Below are positions 17,393-34,886 of a DNA stretch of 64,000 nucleotides, one piece after another (position 1 is the stretch's first letter; each line of letters starts with the position of its first letter). Source of the stretch: Betaproteobacteria bacterium HGW-Betaproteobacteria-16 (lineage in GTDB: Bacteria > Pseudomonadota > Gammaproteobacteria > Burkholderiales > Burkholderiaceae_C); contig PHCQ01000014.1 in assembly GCA_002840835.1 (NCBI GenBank), positions 1 to 64,000 on the forward strand, read 5' to 3'. The position numbers were made by a program, and so were the translations under genes. The notes below the pieces were generated by a model. The model worked only from the letters and a program-made list of their open reading frames with translations, ran no database searches and was not told where the DNA came from.

Positions 17393-19510
17393 TCAGGCCG
17401 CCTTCAGGCTGGGGTAACGCACATGCTCCACCAGCTCTTGAACCTTGCGGCTGGGCGCGGGGGTGACCAGGCTGAGCACGATGATCACGGCAAAGCCCAA
17501 AGGCACACCAAAGACCCCGGCGGAGATCGGCTGGATGCCCCACCACAGCTCCACCGGCGATGTCACACCAAACAGGCCGCGCATCCAGGGCTGGGTCGTC
17601 ACCATGTAATAGAAGGTGGTACCCAATCCGGCGATCATCCCGATGGAAGCCGCGATGCCTGTGGCGCGTTTCCAGAAGATGCCGAGCACCAGTGCCGGGA
17701 AAAACGCCGCTGCCGCGAACGAGAACGCCGCCGATACCAGGAACAGAATGTCCGCCGGTTTCTGCGCCGCCACGTAAGCCGCCGCCAAGGCCACGATCAG
17801 CAGCAACATCTTGGAGATGGTGACGCGACGGGCTGTGGAGGCGTTCGGATCGATCATCTTGTAGTACAGGTCGTGCGACAGCGCATTGGCAATCGTCAGC
17901 AGCAGGCCATCAGCGGTTGACAGTGCAGCGGCCAGTCCACCAGCGGCCACCAGGCCAGAGATCACATACGGCAACCCCCCGATCTCAGCGGTGGCCAGCA
18001 CGATGATGTCGCCACCGATGGTCATCTCGTTGAGCTGCAGGATGCCGTCCTTGTTGATGTCCGTGATCGACATCAGCGACGGGTCCACCTTGTTCCACGA
18101 TGCCACCCAGGCAGGTAGCTGGTCAAACGGCGTCCCGACGACCACGTTGAACACCTCGTATTTCACCAGCACGGCCAAGGCCGGCGCAGTGAAGTACAGC
18201 AGGAAGATGAAGAACAGCGACCAGGTCACCGACTGCCGGGCTTCCTTCACGCTGGGCACCGTGTAATAGCGCATCAGGATGTGAGGCAGCGCTGCAGTAC
18301 CGATCATCAGGCAGAAGATGAGCGCCAGGAAGTTCCGCCGCGAGGTGTCGTAAGCCGCCACCGCGGTCGCATCACCGTTCGGGTCACCCGCGAACTGCTG
18401 TGCATGAGGCGGCATGCCGTTGAGTGGCTTTGACTTGGTGTCTGCCGCAGCCTTTCCCCGGGTCCAGGCGGCTTTGGCGGCCGCTTCGTCCTTGGGCAGG
18501 TCTGCAATCGCCTTTTCCGCCGCAGCGATGTCGCTGGATGGCGCATTGGTGGCACGCAGTTCGGTCAGCCTGGCTTCCGCAGCGGCCTTGTCGGCCACGA
18601 GTGCAGCCGCCGGGTCCTTGAGCTTTTCGGCCAGCGCTTCGGAACGCGCCTTGAAGATACCTCGGACCTCCAGCTCCTTGGGATCTTCGGTCAGCAGTTT
18701 TTCCTTCGCCGACACCTTCTCCAGCTGGAAGCCGTAGATGGCCTGAGGGACGGGTACGCTGGTCTGCTTCACGGACAGCCACACCACCGGGATCATGTAG
18801 GCCACGATCAGGATGATGTACTGCGCCACCTGCGTCCAGGTCACCGCACGCATGCCGCCCAGGAAAGAGCACACCAGAATGCCGCCCAGCCCCAGGAACA
18901 CACCAAGCTCGAACGCCACACCGGTCAGGCGCGACGTGATCAGACCCACGCCGTAGATCTGCGCCACCACATAGGTGAACGAACACAGAATGGCAGCAAA
19001 GATGCCAATGAAGCGCGGCAGGTTGCCGCCATAACGCTCACCCAGAAAGTCGGGAATGGTGAACTGGCCGAACTTGCGCAGGTAAGGCGCCAGGAACAGC
19101 GCCACCAGGCAGTAGCCACCGGTCCAGCCCATGATGAAGGCCAGGCCGCTGTAGCCGGTGAGGTAGAGGGTACCCGCCATGCCGATGAACGAGGCAGCCG
19201 ACATCCAGTCGGCGCCCGTGGCCATGCCGTTGTAGACCGCCGGGACCCGTCGACCCGCCACGTAGTACTCGGCCGCGTCGGTGGTGCGGCTCATGATGCC
19301 GATGCCAGCGTACAGGCCGATGGTGGCGAGCAGGAAGATGAAGCCGATCCACTCGCGGGAGAGGCCCATTTGTTCCAAGATGGCAAGCACGACCACGAAG
19401 AGGAAGAAGCCCCCCGTGTACCACTTGTAGACCTTGTTGAGTTGTTGCTTGAATGCGCGATTGGAGTCTCCGGCACTCATGCCGGCTTTGGTTTCGAACA
19501 TGCCAGCCAT
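17393..19510 (-). CDS. Sodium:solute symporter (SSS; ActP/VC_2705-like) with long hydrophilic insert
   Basis: Multiple TM helices, SSS motifs (YYVAGRRVPAVYNGMATGADWMSAASFIGMAGTLYLTGYSGLAFIMGWTGGY; GLAAALSTADGLLLTIANALSHDLYYK); follows a DUF4212 gene. Confidence 0.9.
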   Translation of the reverse strand: MAGMFETKAGMSAGDSNRAFKQQLNKVYKWYTGGFFLFVVVLAILEQMGLSREWIGFIFLLATIGLYAGIGIMSRTTDAAEYYVAGRRVPAVYNGMATGADWMSAASFIGMAGTLYLTGYSGLAFIMGWTGGYCLVALFLAPYLRKFGQFTIPDFLGERYGGNLPRFIGIFAAILCSFTYVVAQIYGVGLITSRLTGVAFELGVFLGLGGILVCSFLGGMRAVTWTQVAQYIILIVAYMIPVVWLSVKQTSVPVPQAIYGFQLEKVSAKEKLLTEDPKELEVRGIFKARSEALAEKLKDPAAALVADKAAAEARLTELRATNAPSSDIAAAEKAIADLPKDEAAAKAAWTRGKAAADTKSKPLNGMPPHAQQFAGDPNGDATAVAAYDTSRRNFLALIFCLMIGTAALPHILMRYYTVPSVKEARQSVTWSLFFIFLLYFTAPALAVLVKYEVFNVVVGTPFDQLPAWVASWNKVDPSLMSITDINKDGILQLNEMTIGGDIIVLATAEIGGLPYVISGLVAAGGLAAALSTADGLLLTIANALSHDLYYKMIDPNASTARRVTISKMLLLIVALAAAYVAAQKPADILFLVSAAFSFAAAAFFPALVLGIFWKRATGIAASIGMIAGLGTTFYYMVTTQPWMRGLFGVTSPVELWWGIQPISAGVFGVPLGFAVIIVLSLVTPAPSRKVQELVEHVRYPSLKAA

Positions 19511-19514
19511 GGTG

Positions 19515-19775
19515 TTATTCCTCGGTCTCTTCGACACCGTGTTCGATGTCGAGTTTGTTCATGTACCAGGCGTAGTACCCAATGATCACGCAGTACACCA
19601 CCAAGGCGCCCTGGGCACCCATCCAGAAACTGAACGGCCAACCAAAAAAGTTGAAGCTCAGCTCACGGGCGAAATAGCTCACGACGAACGTCACCACAAA
19701 CCAGATTGCTAGCAATATGGCCGTGATGTTGAGGTTTTTCCGCCAGTAGCGGCGGTGCTTGTCAGTCAGTTCCAT
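19515..19775 (-). CDS. DUF4212 family small membrane protein (putative symporter small subunit)
   Basis: 86 aa: HRRYWRKNLNITAILLAIWFVVTFVVSYFARELSFNFFGWPFSFWMGAQGALVVYCVIIGYYAWYMNKLD; immediately upstream of the SSS gene. Confidence 0.88.
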   Translation of the reverse strand: MELTDKHRRYWRKNLNITAILLAIWFVVTFVVSYFARELSFNFFGWPFSFWMGAQGALVVYCVIIGYYAWYMNKLDIEHGVEETEE

Positions 19776-20965: not shown

Positions 20966-22459
20966 ATGTCCAGTCACCTCCTCGACCCCTCCTCTTCGCC
21001 CGCCACGCCACCCAGCGAAGTCGCGGGGCCGGCAAACGATCCGGCGCTCACCCTCATGACCACACCGATCAGGGCGCTTGTGAAGCGGGCGCCCATTTCG
21101 CTGCCACCCCACACCACCATCCGCGAGGCAGCGCAGATGATGAGCGAGCAGCGGGTCTCATCCATTCTCATCGTCGAGCAAGGTCTGCTCTTCGGGTTGA
21201 TCACCGATCGGGATCTGCGCAACCGCGTCATCGCAGCCGGGCTGGACACATCGCGACCGATCCTGGACATTGCCACGCTGGCGCCGCTCTCCGTTGGCGT
21301 GGACGACCCGGCATTCAGCGCGCTGCTGCTGATGGCACGTCACAACATCCACCACGTGCCCGTGCTCGATGGTCAGCAAGTCGTCGGCATGATCACTGCC
21401 ACCGACCTCACCGAACAACACAGCACCTCGGCCGTTTTTCTGGCGGGGGACATCTACAAGCAATCTTCGGTAGAGGGCCTGCAACGGGCGAGTACCAAAG
21501 TCAAGGCGCTGCAACAGAGTCTGGCTGCGGCCGATGCGTCAGCCTACAGCACCGGCCACATCATCACCGCCATCACCGACGCCATCACCAGTCGGCTGCT
21601 CCAACTGGGTGAGGCTCAACTGGGCCCCGCCCCGGTGGACTATGTCTGGGTGGCGGCAGGTTCGCAGGCCCGCAATGAACAATCGGCCAAGTCGGACCAG
21701 GACAACTGCATGGTGCTGGACGACAGCTTCGACGAAAAGGCCCACGGGGCGTACTTCAAGGCCCTGTCGCAGTTCGTTTGCGACGGACTGGACGCCTGCG
21801 GCTACATCTACTGCCCTGGCGAGATGATGGCGATGACCGACACGTGGCGCCAGCCGATGCGCCGATGGGCCGAGTATTTCGCCCGCTGGACCGGGCAACC
21901 CGATCCCAAGGCGCTGATGCTGACGTGCGTGTTCTTCGATCTGAGGGCCATCTACGGTCGATCAGAGCTGCTTGACCAGTTGCGCCAGGATGTGTTGCGG
22001 CGCACCAAGGGCAATACCCTTTTTCTGGCGCACATGGTGGGCAATGCCCTCACCCACTTTCCACCTTTGAGCGTGTTCAACCGCATTTCGCTCATTCGCA
22101 GCGGTGAGCACAAAGGCACGATCGATCTCAAACACGGCGGCATCGTGCCCATCGTTGATCTGGCGCGTGTCCACGCGCTTTCCAGCGGCGACGAAGCCGT
22201 GAACACCCACGACCGCCTCACCAACAGCGTGCCCGGTGCCGCCATCGGAGAACAAAGCGCCAGGGACCTGCGCGACGCACTGGAATTCCTGGCCTTCATG
22301 CGTATCCAGCACCAGACCCGCCAGATCAGCGCCGGCCAGCCACCGGACAACCACATGCGACTGGAAGAGATCTCCAACTTCGAACGAACGCAGCTCAAGG
22401 ACGCATTCACCGTGGTGCAGTCGATGCAGAGCGTGCTGGGTCAGCGATACAGGTTTTGA
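20966..22459 (+). CDS. CBS-pair / DUF294 putative nucleotidyltransferase
   Basis: Two CBS repeats (ITDRDLRN...; MITATDLTEQ) then NTase-like motif GSQARNEQSAKSDQDNCMVL and a DUF294 C-terminal-like region. Confidence 0.88.
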   Translation: MSSHLLDPSSSPATPPSEVAGPANDPALTLMTTPIRALVKRAPISLPPHTTIREAAQMMSEQRVSSILIVEQGLLFGLITDRDLRNRVIAAGLDTSRPILDIATLAPLSVGVDDPAFSALLLMARHNIHHVPVLDGQQVVGMITATDLTEQHSTSAVFLAGDIYKQSSVEGLQRASTKVKALQQSLAAADASAYSTGHIITAITDAITSRLLQLGEAQLGPAPVDYVWVAAGSQARNEQSAKSDQDNCMVLDDSFDEKAHGAYFKALSQFVCDGLDACGYIYCPGEMMAMTDTWRQPMRRWAEYFARWTGQPDPKALMLTCVFFDLRAIYGRSELLDQLRQDVLRRTKGNTLFLAHMVGNALTHFPPLSVFNRISLIRSGEHKGTIDLKHGGIVPIVDLARVHALSSGDEAVNTHDRLTNSVPGAAIGEQSARDLRDALEFLAFMRIQHQTRQISAGQPPDNHMRLEEISNFERTQLKDAFTVVQSMQSVLGQRYRF

Positions 22460-22709: not shown

Positions 22710-24944
22710 TCAATACTTGAGTCGGGCGTAGAAAGTCCGCTGCGCCGCTTCGCGGGCCTGTCCCAGCGTGTGAATGCCCTTCTCAGCCAGCAAGGGGATC
22801 AGCTTCAGGAACACCTCGGCCGTGACCATGGCATCGCCAATGGCGGTATGGCGCCCGATGACGGTCACATTCAGGCGCTCTGCAATCGCTTCCAGCCGAT
22901 GGGAGTCCTGCTGCGGGTGGATGAGTGCAGAAAGCAGCAGGGTGTCCAGCACCGGCTGATCGAAGACCACACCGGTCTGGCGCTCCTTGATCTGCAAGAA
23001 CCGCATGTCGAAGGCCGCGTTGTGTGCCACCAATACGGTGTCATGAGCAAACGTGTAAAAGGCGGGCAACACCACATCTATGGTGGGCTGGCCTTTCACC
23101 ATTTCTGGTCGAATGCCGTGAATGGGGATCGACGCGGCCGGGATGTTTCGGCGTGGATCCACGAGCTGATCAAAACATTCCTGCCGCAACAGCTTGCCAT
23201 TCACGATGCGCGTGGCGCCCACCTGAATGATCTCGTCTCCTTCCAGGGGATTCAGACCCGTGGTCTCGGTGTCAAACACGGTGTAGACCAGATCCGTCAA
23301 CTTGCGGTCGTCCAGCGAGCGCGTGAATTCGGATGTCTGGAACAGGTCGAAGTCGTAGTACTCTGGCCGCCCCTGGTTGCGCACAATGGTGGCCACATCC
23401 AGCTGCTCCTGCGGATTGGCCAGGGGCAGGAGGAATCGGAAGAACGCCTGATTGCGCACCCGCTCGCGTTCAAACCAGAAGGCACCGCCGTGGCGCTCCA
23501 CCACATCGCGCACCGAAAGACGGGTGGCTTCAGACCCGACCTTCATGGCGTCCATCTCCCAGCTCATCACAGTTTCGGTGCTCATCGCCCCACCGGACCA
23601 GATGAGGTCCAGCTGTCCTTTGCCGGGGCTGGCAGTGGCCGCAGTCAGGCGCAGTTGCACGAACCGCGCCGAAAACTCGTCTGCCAACCGCCCCGACAGG
23701 TAGACCAGTGCCTGAAGCAGCGAAAAGCTCTCCACCTTGAGCCATAGCGACGCATCCACCTCTATGGATGAGGCCTGCAGGCCCGTCACCGTCTCGATGC
23801 GGCGAAGCCCCGCCTGCAGCAGGTCGGTGCCCAGCATGTCCTCGAGTGGCCAGCGCGTCTTGATGTGAGCGATGGTGCCTGCTTCCGCGTCCGCGATGCG
23901 GCGGGTGAGCATTTGCGTTTCCTCTCGGATCACCCGGAGGAATCGCTCACGGGTGGCGGTGTCCAGATCGGGGAAATCCAGCATGTCGACAGCGGCCTGC
24001 ATGTTGGCCAGCGCCGAGCGGCTGCCTTCGGTCAGGGCATGCAGCACCTGGTCGCGCGCAGAGTCTGACTCATAGTCCTGAGTGATGTTCTCCAGCATCA
24101 GGACAAAACCGGTCAGTTCGGCCCGGTCTGCGGGTGATTCCGCAGTTTGTGCCTGTATGGAACGCACCGGCGCCATTTGCACGCGCAGCAATTGCCCGGC
24201 GGTGGTGCTGGTGACGAACTGTGCCGATGGCTGGTCCGCACCCCGCAGCATGCGCTGCTGGATGTTCTCCAGCGCGTGCGTCACCAGCTTGCGATCGAAC
24301 ACGCTGTAGATGGAGCGCCCCAACCCGATCAGTTCGGCCCCTCCGGCGACCACGGGTGTGGAAGACAACGCGCGAAACTGGAAGCGTGCCCGGTTGTTGT
24401 ACAGAATGACGCGCCCATCCAGATTGCACACGACCACGCTTTGTGTGAGCTCCGACATGAGCGCCGCCAGACGGCTCTTTTCCAGCTCGATGTTCTGGCT
24501 CGCCTCTTTCACGCGCTCGTCCATCTCGCGTCGCAGTTTTCCGCGCTGTTCGACCAACAGATTGATCACCCGCGCCAGCGCCCGGTTTTCAGTACTGCCC
24601 CGCTCCGGCAGATCGCGCGCCACATCCGCACGCGCCACCGCACCACTTTCTTCGGCCAGTTGGGCGGCCGGCGCCAGGAAATGCTGCATCAGCGCATGGA
24701 GCGCAAAACCGCAGACCCCGACGAAGGCCAGGCCCATCATCACAATCAGGGCCATCGCCGAAAAGCCCCACTCGCCCCAGACTTGTAAAAGCAGTCCGCG
24801 CTGGCCGGCGTTCAGCGTGGACCACAGCAGGCCCGCAGTGGCCAGCAGCCACGCCACGAGGGCTGCCACCATCAGGGCGCTGCCCCACAGCAGGCGCCGG
24901 TCCAGTGGGCGACGGCTCACTGGACCACCCTCCGTGCGGCGCAC
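22710..24944 (-). CDS. Membrane-anchored degenerate histidine-kinase-like protein fused to DnaQ-type 3'-5' exonuclease
   Basis: Two N-terminal TM segments, PAS-like region (LSELTQSVVVCNLDGRVILYNNRARFQF), HisKA/HATPase-like region lacking usual catalytic residues but ending RLSVRDVVERHGGAFWFERERVRNQAFFRFLLPLA, then exonuclease motifs VFDTETTGLNP, HNAAFDMRFL, HTAIGDAMVTAEVF. Confidence 0.85.
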   Translation of the reverse strand: MRRTEGGPVSRRPLDRRLLWGSALMVAALVAWLLATAGLLWSTLNAGQRGLLLQVWGEWGFSAMALIVMMGLAFVGVCGFALHALMQHFLAPAAQLAEESGAVARADVARDLPERGSTENRALARVINLLVEQRGKLRREMDERVKEASQNIELEKSRLAALMSELTQSVVVCNLDGRVILYNNRARFQFRALSSTPVVAGGAELIGLGRSIYSVFDRKLVTHALENIQQRMLRGADQPSAQFVTSTTAGQLLRVQMAPVRSIQAQTAESPADRAELTGFVLMLENITQDYESDSARDQVLHALTEGSRSALANMQAAVDMLDFPDLDTATRERFLRVIREETQMLTRRIADAEAGTIAHIKTRWPLEDMLGTDLLQAGLRRIETVTGLQASSIEVDASLWLKVESFSLLQALVYLSGRLADEFSARFVQLRLTAATASPGKGQLDLIWSGGAMSTETVMSWEMDAMKVGSEATRLSVRDVVERHGGAFWFERERVRNQAFFRFLLPLANPQEQLDVATIVRNQGRPEYYDFDLFQTSEFTRSLDDRKLTDLVYTVFDTETTGLNPLEGDEIIQVGATRIVNGKLLRQECFDQLVDPRRNIPAASIPIHGIRPEMVKGQPTIDVVLPAFYTFAHDTVLVAHNAAFDMRFLQIKERQTGVVFDQPVLDTLLLSALIHPQQDSHRLEAIAERLNVTVIGRHTAIGDAMVTAEVFLKLIPLLAEKGIHTLGQAREAAQRTFYARLKY

Positions 24945-24993: not shown

Positions 24994-25368
24994 TCATGGC
25001 GTCTGCCCCAGCATTTCCCGCACCTTCTGCACCAGCTCCTTCGTGGAAAACGGCTTGGTCATGTAGGCGTTGGCGCCCAGGGCCAGACCTTTTGCCACAT
25101 CCGTGTCGCGACCCTTGGCGGTGAGCATCAGTATGGGTGTGTCCCGGAGGGTTTCGCTGGCGCGCACCTCGTGGCAGACATCGAAGCCCGTCTTGATCGG
25201 CATCATCACGTCTAGCAGCACCAGCGCCGGGCGCTCACGTTCGATGGCGTCGATGGCCTCCTGGCCGTCACGGGCCACCACCACTTCATAGCCCTCGCGC
25301 TTCATCAGAAACTCCAGCGAGATCAGGATGTTGGGCTCGTCGTCTGCAATCAGGATCTTCTGGCTCAT
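24994..25368 (-). CDS. Single-domain response regulator (receiver only)
   Basis: 124 aa: ILIADDEPNILISLEFLMKREGYEV...PALVLLDVMMPIKTGFDVC...PILMLTAKG...GANAYMTKPFS; no output domain. Overlaps the sensor kinase ORF by 4 bp. Confidence 0.93.
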   Translation of the reverse strand: MSQKILIADDEPNILISLEFLMKREGYEVVVARDGQEAIDAIERERPALVLLDVMMPIKTGFDVCHEVRASETLRDTPILMLTAKGRDTDVAKGLALGANAYMTKPFSTKELVQKVREMLGQTP

Positions 25369-28136
25369 GTCTCACTGCTCCGGTTCATGGGTTCATCTTG
25401 TTCGTCAGGCGCTTCGCGATGCCAGGGGAGGAAAAACCCGAAACAGGCACCATGCCCGACCTCCGAGCGCAGCCACATGCGACCGCCAAAGTACGCCACG
25501 ATCTGTCGGCTGATCGGCAAGCCGAGCCCGGTTCCGCCGGGGCGGTAATGCTCGTCCCCTTCCACTTGCCGGAACTTCTCGAACACCATGCCTTGCTGGT
25601 CGTCCGGAATGCCCGGCCCGTTGTCCTGCACCTCCACCGTGACGCCCTCTTCATCTTCGCTCAAGGTCAGCACCACCTGGCCACCGCCGCGCGGTGCGTA
25701 CTTGGCCGCATTCGACAGCAGGTTCAAGACCACCTGGGTGATGCGGTCGGCATCGACCCGAAGGGTGCGCACCTTGTCGGGCAGGCGCATCGTGAGTGTG
25801 ATGCCCCTTTCCCGGTAGAACTCGGCCATGCTGCCAAAGGCCTTGGCCAGCAGGTCACGCATGTCCACATCGGTATGGTGCCAGTCGGCATGGCCCGCTT
25901 CCAGCTTGGCCATGTCGAGCACCTGGTTCACAAGCCGGCTGAGGCGCTCGGCCTCGGTCACGATGATGTCCAGAAATTTCTGGCGCTGCGCCAGTGGCAT
26001 GTTGTCATCATCGCGCATGAGTTCGGACAATGCCCTGATCGAAGTCAAGGGCGTGCGCAACTCGTGGGTCACCGACGACATGAAATCGTCCTTCATGCGG
26101 TCCAGGCTCTTGAGCTTCTGGTTGGCCTTTCGAAGCTCGGACGTGGCCCGTTCCAGCGAGCGTGATTTGTCTTCCAGCGCATGGGAATAGGCGCGCAGGT
26201 GCGAGGCCTCCTCCAGGATGCGCATGACGTCGTCGAGATCGAGCGCCTCTTCCTCCACCACCGAGGCCACCATCACGCGCGCAGACGCACTACCAATGGC
26301 CCCCGCGAGCTGGGTTTCCACGAACTGCACCAGCCGGGCATCGGCCGAGATGTCCTCGATGCGGCCCACACCCACGCGCCGGGCATAGTCCTCAAAGAGC
26401 CGCTGTGCAGGTTCCGCCCCCAGGAAACGCCCCACCAGGGGCAGCAACGCCGAGACCTGCGCCTTGCCTTGCCAGAACACCGGATGGGACGCCGCCGTGC
26501 GGTGGAACACGTCAACGAACAACAAGGCCTGGCTCGTTTCAACCGCAGTGGGCGAACGCCAGAGGGACAGCCCGGCGTACGCAGCAATGTTGGCCAGCAG
26601 GCTCCAGAACAGCGAATGCGTGAGGTTGTCCAGGCCGGTCAGGCCCAGAAAGGCCTCAGGCTTGAGCAGCTCGATGCCCAGCAAACCGCGATCGAGAAAG
26701 GCCGAAGGCAGCCACCCTGACTTGGCCAGCGAAGGCAGCATCAAGGTGTACGCCCAGAACGCAAACCCCAGCATCAGACCAGCCAGGGCCCCGCGCCGGG
26801 TGCCGCCTTTCCAGTACATGCCACCCAGCATGGCCGGTGCAAACTGGGCCACCGCCGCAAAGCTGATCAGGCCGATGCTGACCAGGGCATAAGCCTCGCC
26901 GGCGAGGTGAAAGTAGAGGTAGCCAAGCAGCAGGATGCCCAGGATGGCCAGGCGCCGGATACCCAGCAGCAAGCCGGTGAGATCGCCACTGGCGCGGGCG
27001 CCAAACCGGCGCATGCGCAGCAGGATGGGCATCACCAGATCGTTGCAGACCATCGTGGACACGGCGATCGCCTCCACGATCACCATGCCGGTGGCAGCAG
27101 ACAGCCCGCCCACAAAGACAAACAGCGCCAGCCACGCGTACCCCTGCGACAGGGGCAGAGACAACACGAAGGTTTCAGGGTCCATCACACCGGGCCCAAA
27201 ATGCAGCAGGCCCCCGATCGCGATCGGCAAGACGAACAGATTGATCAGAAACAGGTACAGAGGAAAAGCCCACACCGCCCGGCGCAGGTGCTGCTCGTCC
27301 ACGTTTTCCACCACCATCACCTGGAACTGGCGCGGCAGGAAGATCACCGACAACATGGCCAGCAAGGTCAGGCCCAGCCACTGGGCGTAAGCAAATGGCT
27401 GGCCTTGTCCGAACTGCAGGAGCTCGCGAAGTGCAGGCACGGCGCGGGCCTGCTCGAACAAGGCCGCCGGGCTTGAGAACAGCCAGAAGCTGACGAACAG
27501 ACCCACTGCCATGAAAGCCATCAGCTTCACCACAGACTCGAAGGCGATGGCGGCCACCATGCCTTCATGTCGCTCGGTGCTGTCGAGGTGTCGCGCACCG
27601 AACACGATCGTGAACCCGGCCAGCGCCAGCGCCACATACAAGGTGCTGTCACTCCACCATTGCGCGCTCTGCACCGCCGGCTGGCCCAGTGGCGATGTGA
27701 GCACTGCATAGCCGCTGGCGATGGCCTTCAGCTGCAGTGCAATGTAGGGCACGATGCCCACCACGGTGATGAGCGTGACCAGACCGGCCAGCGTGGGACT
27801 TTTACCGTAGCGGCTCGCGATGAAATCGGCGATGGAGGTGATGCGGTAGGTCTTGGCGATGCGGATCATCTTGCGCACCACCATCCAGGCCATGATCATC
27901 GCCAGCATGGGTCCCAGGTAGATCGGCAGAAACCACACCCCGGAATTGGCTGCTCTGCCCACGCTGCCGAAATAGGTCCAGGCGGTGCAATAGACCGCCA
28001 TGGACAAGGCATAGACCCAGGGGCTGGCGATGACGGACCGCCCCTGGGCCGCACGCCAATCGCCCCAATAAGCCACCGCGAACAGCACCAGCAGGTACGC
28101 GAATGAAACGCCGATGACCAGTGACCCGGACAGCAT
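25365..28136 (-). CDS. SSS-domain sensor histidine kinase (CbrA/CrbS-like)
   Basis: N-terminal SSS-like multi-TM region; intact H-box [19 protein letters not shown]; HATPase N-box [42 protein letters not shown]. Confidence 0.92.
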
Positions 28137-33029: not shown

Positions 33030-34886
33030 TCAGTGGCCGCCAGTGGCCACACCAGCGCCCTTGGGCACGCGGACCGACTCCACCAGTTCCTGGATGTGCT
33101 TCGGTGCAGGTGCCGTCATCTTGTTCACCAAGAAGGCCACCACGAAGTTGGTGATGGCACCCACGGTACCGAAGGCTTCAGGCGTGATGGTGAAGAAGCC
33201 GTTCACGCCACCCACCATCTCCACATAGCCGGTGCCCGGGATGAAGAAGATGCCCTTGTGTGCGAACACGTAGAACAGGGTCACGAACAGGCCCGCCAGC
33301 ATGCCGGCAACAGCACCCTTGTCGCTCATGGTGCGGCTGAAGATGCCCATCATCAACGCTGGGAAGATGGTGGAAGCCGCAATACCGAACGCCAAAGCCA
33401 CCGTACCTGCCGCGAAACCGGGCGGGTTCAAGCCCAGCCAGCCCGCCACAAAAATGGCAACCGCCATGGCGATCTTGCCGGCCATGAGCTCGCCCTTCTC
33501 GCTGATGTCAGGCTTGATGGCGCCCTTGATCAGGTCGTGCGAAATGGCAGACGAAATGGCCAGCAGCAGACCAGCAGCAGTGGACAGCGCGGCGGCCAGG
33601 CCACCTGCAGCCACCAGCGCGATCACCCAGTTGGGCAGCAGCGCAATTTCCGGGTTCGCCAGCACGATGATGTCGGCGTTCACGGTCAGTTCGTTACCCT
33701 TCCAGCCAGCCGCTTCGGCCTTGCCTTTGGCGACTTCGTTCTTGGTCTTGTCGTTGTAGTACTGGATACGGCCATCGGCGTTCTTGTCTTCCCACTTCAG
33801 CAGGCCGGTCTTTTCCCAACGCTTCATCCATTCTGGCCGGCTCTCGTAGACCAGGCTGGCTTCGGTGGCGTACACGTCTGCATTGGCCTTGACTGCCTCT
33901 GGGTTCACACCCAGGCGGCCGTCAGCGTCACGCACCAGGCCCACAGCGGAGTTCACCGTGCCATGCAGGTTCAACTTGGCCATGGCGCCCACTGCGGGTG
34001 CGGTGGTGTAGAGCAGTGCGATGAACACCAGCGCCCAGCCGGCAGATGCGCGTGCATCGGCCACTTTCGGCACGGTGAAGAAGCGCACGATCACGTGGGG
34101 CAGACCAGCGGTACCGATCATCAGCGAGATCGTGTAGAACAGCATGTTCAGCGTGGAACCGGCAGCCGTGGTGGTGTACTGGCCAAAGCCGAGGTCGGTC
34201 ACCACCTGATCCAGCTTGGTCAGCAGCGACACATCGGTACCCGCGATGGAAGAGCCCAGGCCCAGTTGTGGCAGGAAGTTGCCGGTCAGGTTCAACGAGA
34301 TGAAGAATGCCGGCACCAGGTAGGCCAGGATCAGCACGATGTACTGAGCCACCTGCGTGTAGGTGATGCCTTTCATGCCACCGAACACGGCGTAGGCAAA
34401 CACGATTGCCATGCCGATGTAGATGCCCTGCTCGCTGGTTACACCCAGGAAGCGCGCAAAGGTCACGCCCACGCCAGTCATCTGACCGATGATGTAGGTG
34501 AGCGAGGCCACCAGCAGACACAGTACGGCCACATTGCGTGCGGACTTCGAATAGAAGCGGTCACCGATGAACTCCGGCACGGTGAACTTGCCGAACTTGC
34601 GCAGGTACGGTGCCAGCAGCATGGCCAGCAGCACGTAGCCGCCCGTCCAGCCCATCAGGAACACGGCGCCGCCGTAGCCCATGTTGGAAATCAGGCCGGC
34701 CATCGAGATGAACGAGGCTGCCGACATCCAGTCGGCCGCCGTTGCCATGCCGTTGGTCACGGGATGCACGCCGCCGCCGGCCACATAAAACTCGGAGGTG
34801 CTGCCAGCGCGGGCCCACACGGCGATGCCGATGTAGATCGCGAAGGTGATGCCCACCACCACGTAGGTCAGGGTTTGAAGGTCCAT
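33030..34886 (-). CDS. Sodium:solute symporter (ActP/VC_2705-like), second paralogue
   Basis: SSS motifs (EFYVAGGGVHPVTNGMATAADWMSAASFISMAGLISNMGYGGAVFLMGWTGGY; LAAALSTAAGLLLAISSAISHDLIKG); follows a DUF4212 gene. Confidence 0.92.
   Translation of the reverse strand: MDLQTLTYVVVGITFAIYIGIAVWARAGSTSEFYVAGGGVHPVTNGMATAADWMSAASFISMAGLISNMGYGGAVFLMGWTGGYVLLAMLLAPYLRKFGKFTVPEFIGDRFYSKSARNVAVLCLLVASLTYIIGQMTGVGVTFARFLGVTSEQGIYIGMAIVFAYAVFGGMKGITYTQVAQYIVLILAYLVPAFFISLNLTGNFLPQLGLGSSIAGTDVSLLTKLDQVVTDLGFGQYTTTAAGSTLNMLFYTISLMIGTAGLPHVIVRFFTVPKVADARASAGWALVFIALLYTTAPAVGAMAKLNLHGTVNSAVGLVRDADGRLGVNPEAVKANADVYATEASLVYESRPEWMKRWEKTGLLKWEDKNADGRIQYYNDKTKNEVAKGKAEAAGWKGNELTVNADIIVLANPEIALLPNWVIALVAAGGLAAALSTAAGLLLAISSAISHDLIKGAIKPDISEKGELMAGKIAMAVAIFVAGWLGLNPPGFAAGTVALAFGIAASTIFPALMMGIFSRTMSDKGAVAGMLAGLFVTLFYVFAHKGIFFIPGTGYVEMVGGVNGFFTITPEAFGTVGAITNFVVAFLVNKMTAPAPKHIQELVESVRVPKGAGVATGGH

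Follow-up and report, generated by a model that had tools for sequence, protein, structure and literature searches.

A gene in the window (the whole stretch of DNA that was analysed, 64,000 nucleotides long) probably encodes the effector of a two-component pathway with a non-transcriptional output. The effector would be a membrane-anchored pseudo-histidine kinase that is gated by a response regulator (RR) and carries an exonuclease, which would act together with a CBS-DUF294 nucleotidyltransferase; the probability given to this reading is about 0.55. In the proposed mechanism, a transporter-type histidine kinase (25365-28136) would phosphorylate a single-domain RR (24994-25368), and the phosphorylated form (RR~P) would bind the membrane-anchored protein at its pseudo-DHp hairpin, in the way that DivK~P docks on DivL. 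The pseudokinase, unable to autophosphorylate, would instead read the RR, and its dead DHp-CA module would combine with input from the transmembrane (TM) and PAS parts to alter the activity or the access of the C-terminal exonuclease. The exonuclease would share a process with the neighbouring nucleotidyltransferase in a context of acetate or monocarboxylate uptake, and the likeliest relation is that it would strip from RNA ends or from a protein the nucleotides that the transferase puts there. What the sequences show is the fold, the loss of the kinase residues, the intact exonuclease residues, the intact RR and kinase, the gene linkage, the joint loss of RR and DHp, and the pairing and fusions with DUF294; docking, the direction of gating, the substrate and the writer/eraser relation are proposals. 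An initial annotation of the gene omitted the linked RR, the transporter-type kinase and the CBS-DUF294 partnership. A literature search that covered few subscription papers found no description of a pseudokinase-DnaQ fusion, and no function described for the pair of DUF294 protein and exonuclease.

The gene and its kinase-like middle region

The open reading frame at 22710-24944 on the minus strand runs without interruption over 744 codons, as had been annotated. An in-frame GTG at 24920 is preceded by a ggagg Shine-Dalgarno sequence and is a better start than 24944; because this ggagg stands just before it, a protein of 736 aa was adopted as more likely the true length, and residue numbers count from this GTG unless stated otherwise (Table 1). 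The predicted order of domains is two TM helices, PAS, DHp/CA and a DEDDh exonuclease. The two N-terminal TM segments noticed earlier are found as hydrophobic helices at residues 9-36 and 49-79. For the PAS-like region the Pfam match of the window protein is weak and sub-threshold (PAS_4, E 0.03), and the domain holds many of the invariant columns that lie outside the exonuclease. An assembly artefact as the source of the fused architecture was ruled out, as 80 loci of other genomes match the protein at 53-92% identity, nearly all of them over the full length. The family is widespread, with members in alpha-, beta- and gammaproteobacteria.

Table 1. Positions in the window of the pseudokinase-exonuclease gene, its predicted domains and its neighbours
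Feature	Position	Strand	Basis or remark
Sodium:solute symporter (VC_2705 family, ActP-like)	17393..19537	(-)	TIGR03648 806 bits, above cutoff; recurrent neighbour
CBS-CBS-DUF294 nucleotidyltransferase	20966..22459	(+)	Convergent with the exonuclease gene; conserved neighbour
Pseudokinase-exonuclease gene	22710..24920	(-)	736 aa from GTG 24920; 744 aa if GTG 24944
Predicted DEDDh (DnaQ/RNase T) 3'-5' exonuclease domain	22710..23285	(-)	RNase_T E 3.3e-34; Asp550, Glu552, Asp638, His691, Asp696
CA/HATPase-like domain, degenerate, N-box and G-boxes lost	23421..23843	(-)	Residues 360-500; alignment, hhalign, model, Foldseek
Pseudo-DHp helical hairpin	23862..24086	(-)	Residues 279-353; hhalign, model pLDDT 89, Foldseek
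Glu298 codon, at the phospho-acceptor His position	24027..24029	(-)	Profile alignment with the neighbour kinase
PAS-like domain	24069..24485	(-)	About residues 146-284; PAS_4 E 0.03; PAS found in relative
Two transmembrane helices	24684..24896	(-)	Residues 9-36 and 49-79; hydropathy; helices also in structure model
Single-domain (CheY-like) response regulator	24994..25368	(-)	Response_reg E 5e-28; all phosphorylation residues present
Transporter-type histidine kinase, intact HisKA and HATPase	25365..28136	(-)	Overlaps the RR gene by 4 nt

In the window protein, neither HisKA nor HATPase was called by Pfam, but HisKA was called in the middle segments of 9 of 111 relatives (best 7.6e-5). When a profile of 165 full-length relatives was aligned by hhalign with one built for the kinase domain of the gene two places upstream, the two matched with 97.6% probability (E 2.7e-12, 203 columns), and the same alignment put the Glu of the pseudokinase on the phospho-His of the neighbour kinase. 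The controls, three column-shuffled kinase profiles and the exonuclease domain, reached at most 1.4%. An AlphaFold2 model of the pseudokinase segment, made from an alignment of 111 diverse relatives, has a mean pLDDT of 89.4; its Foldseek matches in the PDB are kinases or proteins that resemble kinases, among them the HK853-RR468 complex (9e-11) and DivL, a pseudokinase (4q20, 3.3e-10), and a full-length structure model matches WalK (2e-18). A kinase-like fold was thus found by profile as well as by structure, and hhalign, AlphaFold2 and Foldseek agree on DHp plus CA, which upholds the HisKA- and HATPase-like region of the initial annotation. The middle region has the DHp and CA fold of a histidine kinase without the catalytic features, and so is not filed as a histidine kinase.

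The residues that would make it a kinase are gone throughout the family. In the column of the phospho-accepting His, the 165 full-length relatives have E (117), D (33), Q (4), P (4), A (3), T (2), M (1) or a gap (1), so that it is never His and is Glu or Asp in 150. The window protein reads TEGSRSAL at the H-box site and WSGGAM where DxGxG is expected, and the N-box and G-boxes are missing in every group of relatives, which read LQALxYLAxRL and WxGxx and have no GxGxG. All three absences had been reported from the window protein, and the view of a pseudo-histidine kinase that is tethered to the membrane and fused to an exonuclease with intact catalytic residues stands. The label "degenerate" for this kinase module is misleading, since the Glu/Asp at the His site is strongly conserved and so is the Arg three residues behind it (H+3; 162/165). 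For that reason the middle region is a maintained, conserved pseudokinase and not a decaying one. Measured against the closest relative only, dN/dS is 0.04 for the DHp and 0.009 for the exonuclease, and judged by this comparison purifying selection acts on the DHp. That a kinase gene is simply decaying was ruled out on the grounds that the pseudokinase state is common to three classes, that the replacement residues are conserved and that dN/dS is low. A phosphorylatable His elsewhere in the DHp was rejected as well: the candidate, H302 (744-aa numbering), lies four residues before the acceptor site and is not general, as 72% of the beta/gamma sequences have His in its column but less than half of the wider set do.

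Response regulator, proposed docking hairpin and DivL

On the same strand, the transporter-type kinase is followed by the RR and, after a gap of 73 nt, by the pseudokinase-exonuclease. The linked RR is a receiver-only protein of 124 aa, and a linked DNA-binding CrbR is absent at the locus. Among linked RR orthologues, Asp53 and Lys104 are present in 176/176, and 174/176 are without an output domain. At 49 long beta/gamma loci the kinase is found in 44 and the RR in 47. The RR lies upstream of the exonuclease at the alpha MAG loci, and in the other gamma group the gene order is mostly RR-exonuclease-kinase. No adjacent transporter-type kinase was found at the Rhodobacteraceae loci, where the kinase must therefore be elsewhere. 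The N-terminal half of the window's kinase has at least 11 TM segments and matches PDB entry 10ed, a "histidine kinase" (E 1.8e-71, residues 7-472); compared with ActP symporters, it does not reach Pfam SSF and gives 12% in hhalign, and homology to them is not established. Two side observations concern membrane proteins of these loci. Both SSF symporters of the window, at 17393-19537 and 33030-34886, have charged insertions that contain stretches resembling EF-hands (DINKDGILQLNE; EDKNADGRIQYYND), and in Rhodobacteraceae (L115, L116, L123-L131) a conserved small membrane protein of about 175 aa, which begins like MFWTLIAAIFGGLAGAG, is encoded between the DUF294 gene and the RR/exonuclease genes.

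The family is present in 141 of 299 Rhodobacteraceae genomes, and 140 loci could be scored for both RR and DHp. A full DHp together with an upstream RR is found at 49 of these, neither RR nor full DHp at 88, and a full DHp only at 3; an RR without DHp occurs at 0/140. Among the 88 loci without both, the entire pseudokinase is gone in 77 and the DHp is shortened in 11, and none has the RR. The 11 intermediate loci (including L124-L127, L204, L205, L226, L236 and L250) keep the CA domain, have a shortened DHp hairpin and have lost the RRPAANLQ-like motif. From these forms, which keep CA but not the hairpin, the CA domain may be able to act without the DHp. Mapped on the exonuclease tree, the DHp changes about 7 times and the RR about 10 times, and a Pagel-type likelihood test favours dependent evolution of the two (LR 33.1, 4 d.f., p 1.2e-6). 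Counting well-supported branches alone leaves 3-4 independent co-losses, which are too few for a sign test (not significant). Residue covariation between RR and DHp gives p 0.05, a value at which 15% of slid position sets are equally good and clade differences dominate. A relocated RR in the RR-less genomes was ruled out, as the best remaining RRs are other paralogues: of those from 17 such genomes, 15 group with unlinked paralogues in a single clade with strong support, and 2 lie elsewhere. This clade is also present in genomes that have the linked RR, and it stands apart from the linked Rhodobacteraceae RRs.

The simplest reading of the joint loss is that the hairpin exists for docking of the RR, and because the hairpin is lost together with the adjacent RR, the earlier suggestion that the pseudokinase gates the nuclease gains support. 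Other observations count on the other side. Three loci have a full-length DHp but no RR beside it, which speaks against docking, and the RR-less forms keep the catalytic residues, which speaks against gating; since these forms are catalytically intact, the exonuclease as such can do without the RR. The DHp-CA module could also be a dimerisation scaffold, or a relic that relays the TM-PAS signal, with the RR serving some other target and the joint loss being a reduction of the locus. The TM and PAS parts do persist where the pseudokinase is lost, the PAS ranks with the best-conserved regions, and kinase and RR are merely adjacent, all of which would fit such a scaffold. It would not lead one to expect that the 11 intermediate loci, all without RR, shorten the DHp hairpin specifically and keep CA, nor that no locus with an RR is without the hairpin, and the conserved acid at the His site and Arg at H+3 are not needed by a plain scaffold. 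We consider this explanation unlikely.

The textbook example of a histidine kinase that has become a reader of a response regulator is DivL. Like DivL of Caulobacter crescentus, the window family has a PAS-DHp-CA pseudokinase in which the phospho-His is replaced and the Arg at H+3 is kept, and which is tied genetically to a single-domain, phosphorylatable RR; as in DivL, the His is lost and the putative docking surface of the DHp is kept, the hairpin being retained where the RR is retained. In DivL this Arg is R553, and the R553A exchange disrupts binding of DivK~P (PMC4211667). The two families differ in that the His has become Tyr in DivL and Glu or Asp here, and that the CA domain is far more degenerate here. 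The output of DivL is control of the kinase CckA, whereas that of the window family would be the covalently attached exonuclease, and orthology is not claimed. We infer that the window pseudokinase works like DivL.

Histidine kinases can retain RR phosphatase activity without kinase activity. The conserved Glu/Asp at the phospho-His position could accordingly belong to a DHp that acts on the RR, as a phosphatase or a sink for RR~P, with the exonuclease as a separate output of the same chain. The sites at H+1 and H+4, which form the ExxT/N motif in HisKA kinases, are however not conserved as E and T/N, and DivL, the closest functional analogue, is without phosphatase activity (PMC4211667), which makes this explanation quite improbable.

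Exonuclease and CBS-DUF294 nucleotidyltransferase

The C-terminal domain is a predicted DEDDh 3'-5' exonuclease. It scores 119 bits against Pfam RNase_T (PF00929; cutoff 24, E 3e-34), and its motifs are DTE (ExoI), HNAAFD (ExoII) and RHTAIGD (ExoIII). These motifs had been described as intact, which agrees with the invariance of the five catalytic residues (D/E/D/H/D) in 165/165 full-length relatives and 77/77 relatives without the pseudokinase. Among solved sequences, it comes nearest to the PolC exonuclease (2p1j, E 4e-32) and DnaQ epsilon. With the DEDDh family, which includes the PolC exonuclease, DnaQ epsilon and RNase T (PF00929), the domain shares all five catalytic residues; the window protein differs in being membrane-anchored behind a PAS-pseudokinase, in standing outside any polymerase and in being paired with CBS-DUF294.

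This pairing is close to constant. The CBS-DUF294 gene is found at 130/132 Rhodobacteraceae loci and 36/49 beta/gamma loci. The association was also examined from the other side, in a sample of 31 DUF294 genes made up of the best-scoring genes of a 120-genome survey and both genes in the window's genome: all 31 have a DnaQ-type neighbour, which in 22 cases is an ORF within 1.5 kb and in 9 cases a long exonuclease 0.9-2.6 kb off. In the survey (L306-L334, L135, L136) the partner is mostly a short soluble exonuclease encoded directly downstream. The short soluble partner in the window's own genome is of the NF006602 type; there, on another contig (C76, L003 1-2106), a second CBS-DUF294 gene abuts the gene of this 250-aa exonuclease. 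In two genomes the partners form a single chain, RNase_T-CBS-CBS-DUF294-DUF294_C, of about 704-712 aa and alphaproteobacterial type (L133 in G244, L134 in G012). Because of the pairing counts and these fusions, the exonuclease core is the constant partner of DUF294, and TM, PAS, pseudokinase and RR are a regulatory layer on one branch. From gene association only, an antagonistic writer/eraser relation between exonuclease and CBS-DUF294 is plausible.

Physiological data exist for a related pair. In Pseudomonas putida, MxtR/ErdR (CrbS/R) targets PP_0354 (CBS) and PP_0353 (RNase_T), which form one operon; deletion of PP_0353 slows growth on pyruvate and not on acetate, the authors suggest mRNA decay as its role, and added DNA made no difference in growth between the strains (PMC9927547). 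CrbS/R of P. fluorescens also controls a CBS-nucleotidyltransferase gene (PMC5715377). The PP_0354-PP_0353 operon resembles the short-type pair on contig C76. The window locus itself is like the CrbS/CrbR (MxtR/ErdR) system in having genes for a transporter-type kinase, an ActP-like symporter, CBS-DUF294 and RNase_T, the last two kinds being MxtR/ErdR targets in Pseudomonas (PMC9927547, PMC5715377). It differs in that CrbR is published as a DNA-binding regulator, whereas the window's kinase gene precedes those of a receiver-only RR and a pseudokinase-exonuclease.

As for the substrate, the protein could be an ordinary nucleic-acid exonuclease placed at the membrane, working in mRNA turnover or DNA processing and chemically unrelated to the nucleotidyltransferase, and gated either as proposed or by the PAS alone. 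This explanation concerns the substrate and is compatible with RR docking. That the closest structures are proofreading exonucleases (PolC, DnaQ) would fit it, as would the mRNA decay suggested for PP_0353 and the slower growth of its deletion strain on pyruvate (PMC9927547). Against it, the near-constant pairing with CBS-DUF294 and the occasional fusion point to a joint reaction or target, and the P. putida strains grew alike with added DNA (PMC9927547). It is a serious possibility, to which we give less than even odds. A more far-reaching version of the preferred, RR-gated reading is that the transporter-type kinase, the receiver-only RR and the DivL-like pseudokinase switch a membrane exonuclease that erases nucleotides written by CBS-DUF294, the target being RNA or a protein, for example the monocarboxylate symporter. 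This version is speculative and rather unlikely to hold in full; if true, it would be a complete phospho-signalling route with an enzymatic, non-transcriptional output.

Implications for two-component signalling

In eukaryotes, RNase L and IRE1 have a (pseudo)kinase module that controls a fused nuclease, the same general logic as proposed for the window family. Their Ser/Thr-kinase fold and KEN nuclease are unrelated to the domains found here, and they have no response regulator. In bacterial two-component signalling, a nuclease output would be unusual. The window family would be a second, widespread DivL-like family with a different, enzymatic output, and two small proteins suffice to put the idea of an RR-gated nuclease to a direct test. 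The joint vanishing of the RR and of the hairpin on which it presumably docks amounts to a natural evolutionary experiment, and the near-constant DnaQ-type neighbour of the uncharacterised CBS-DUF294 proteins is a strong handle on the functions of both.
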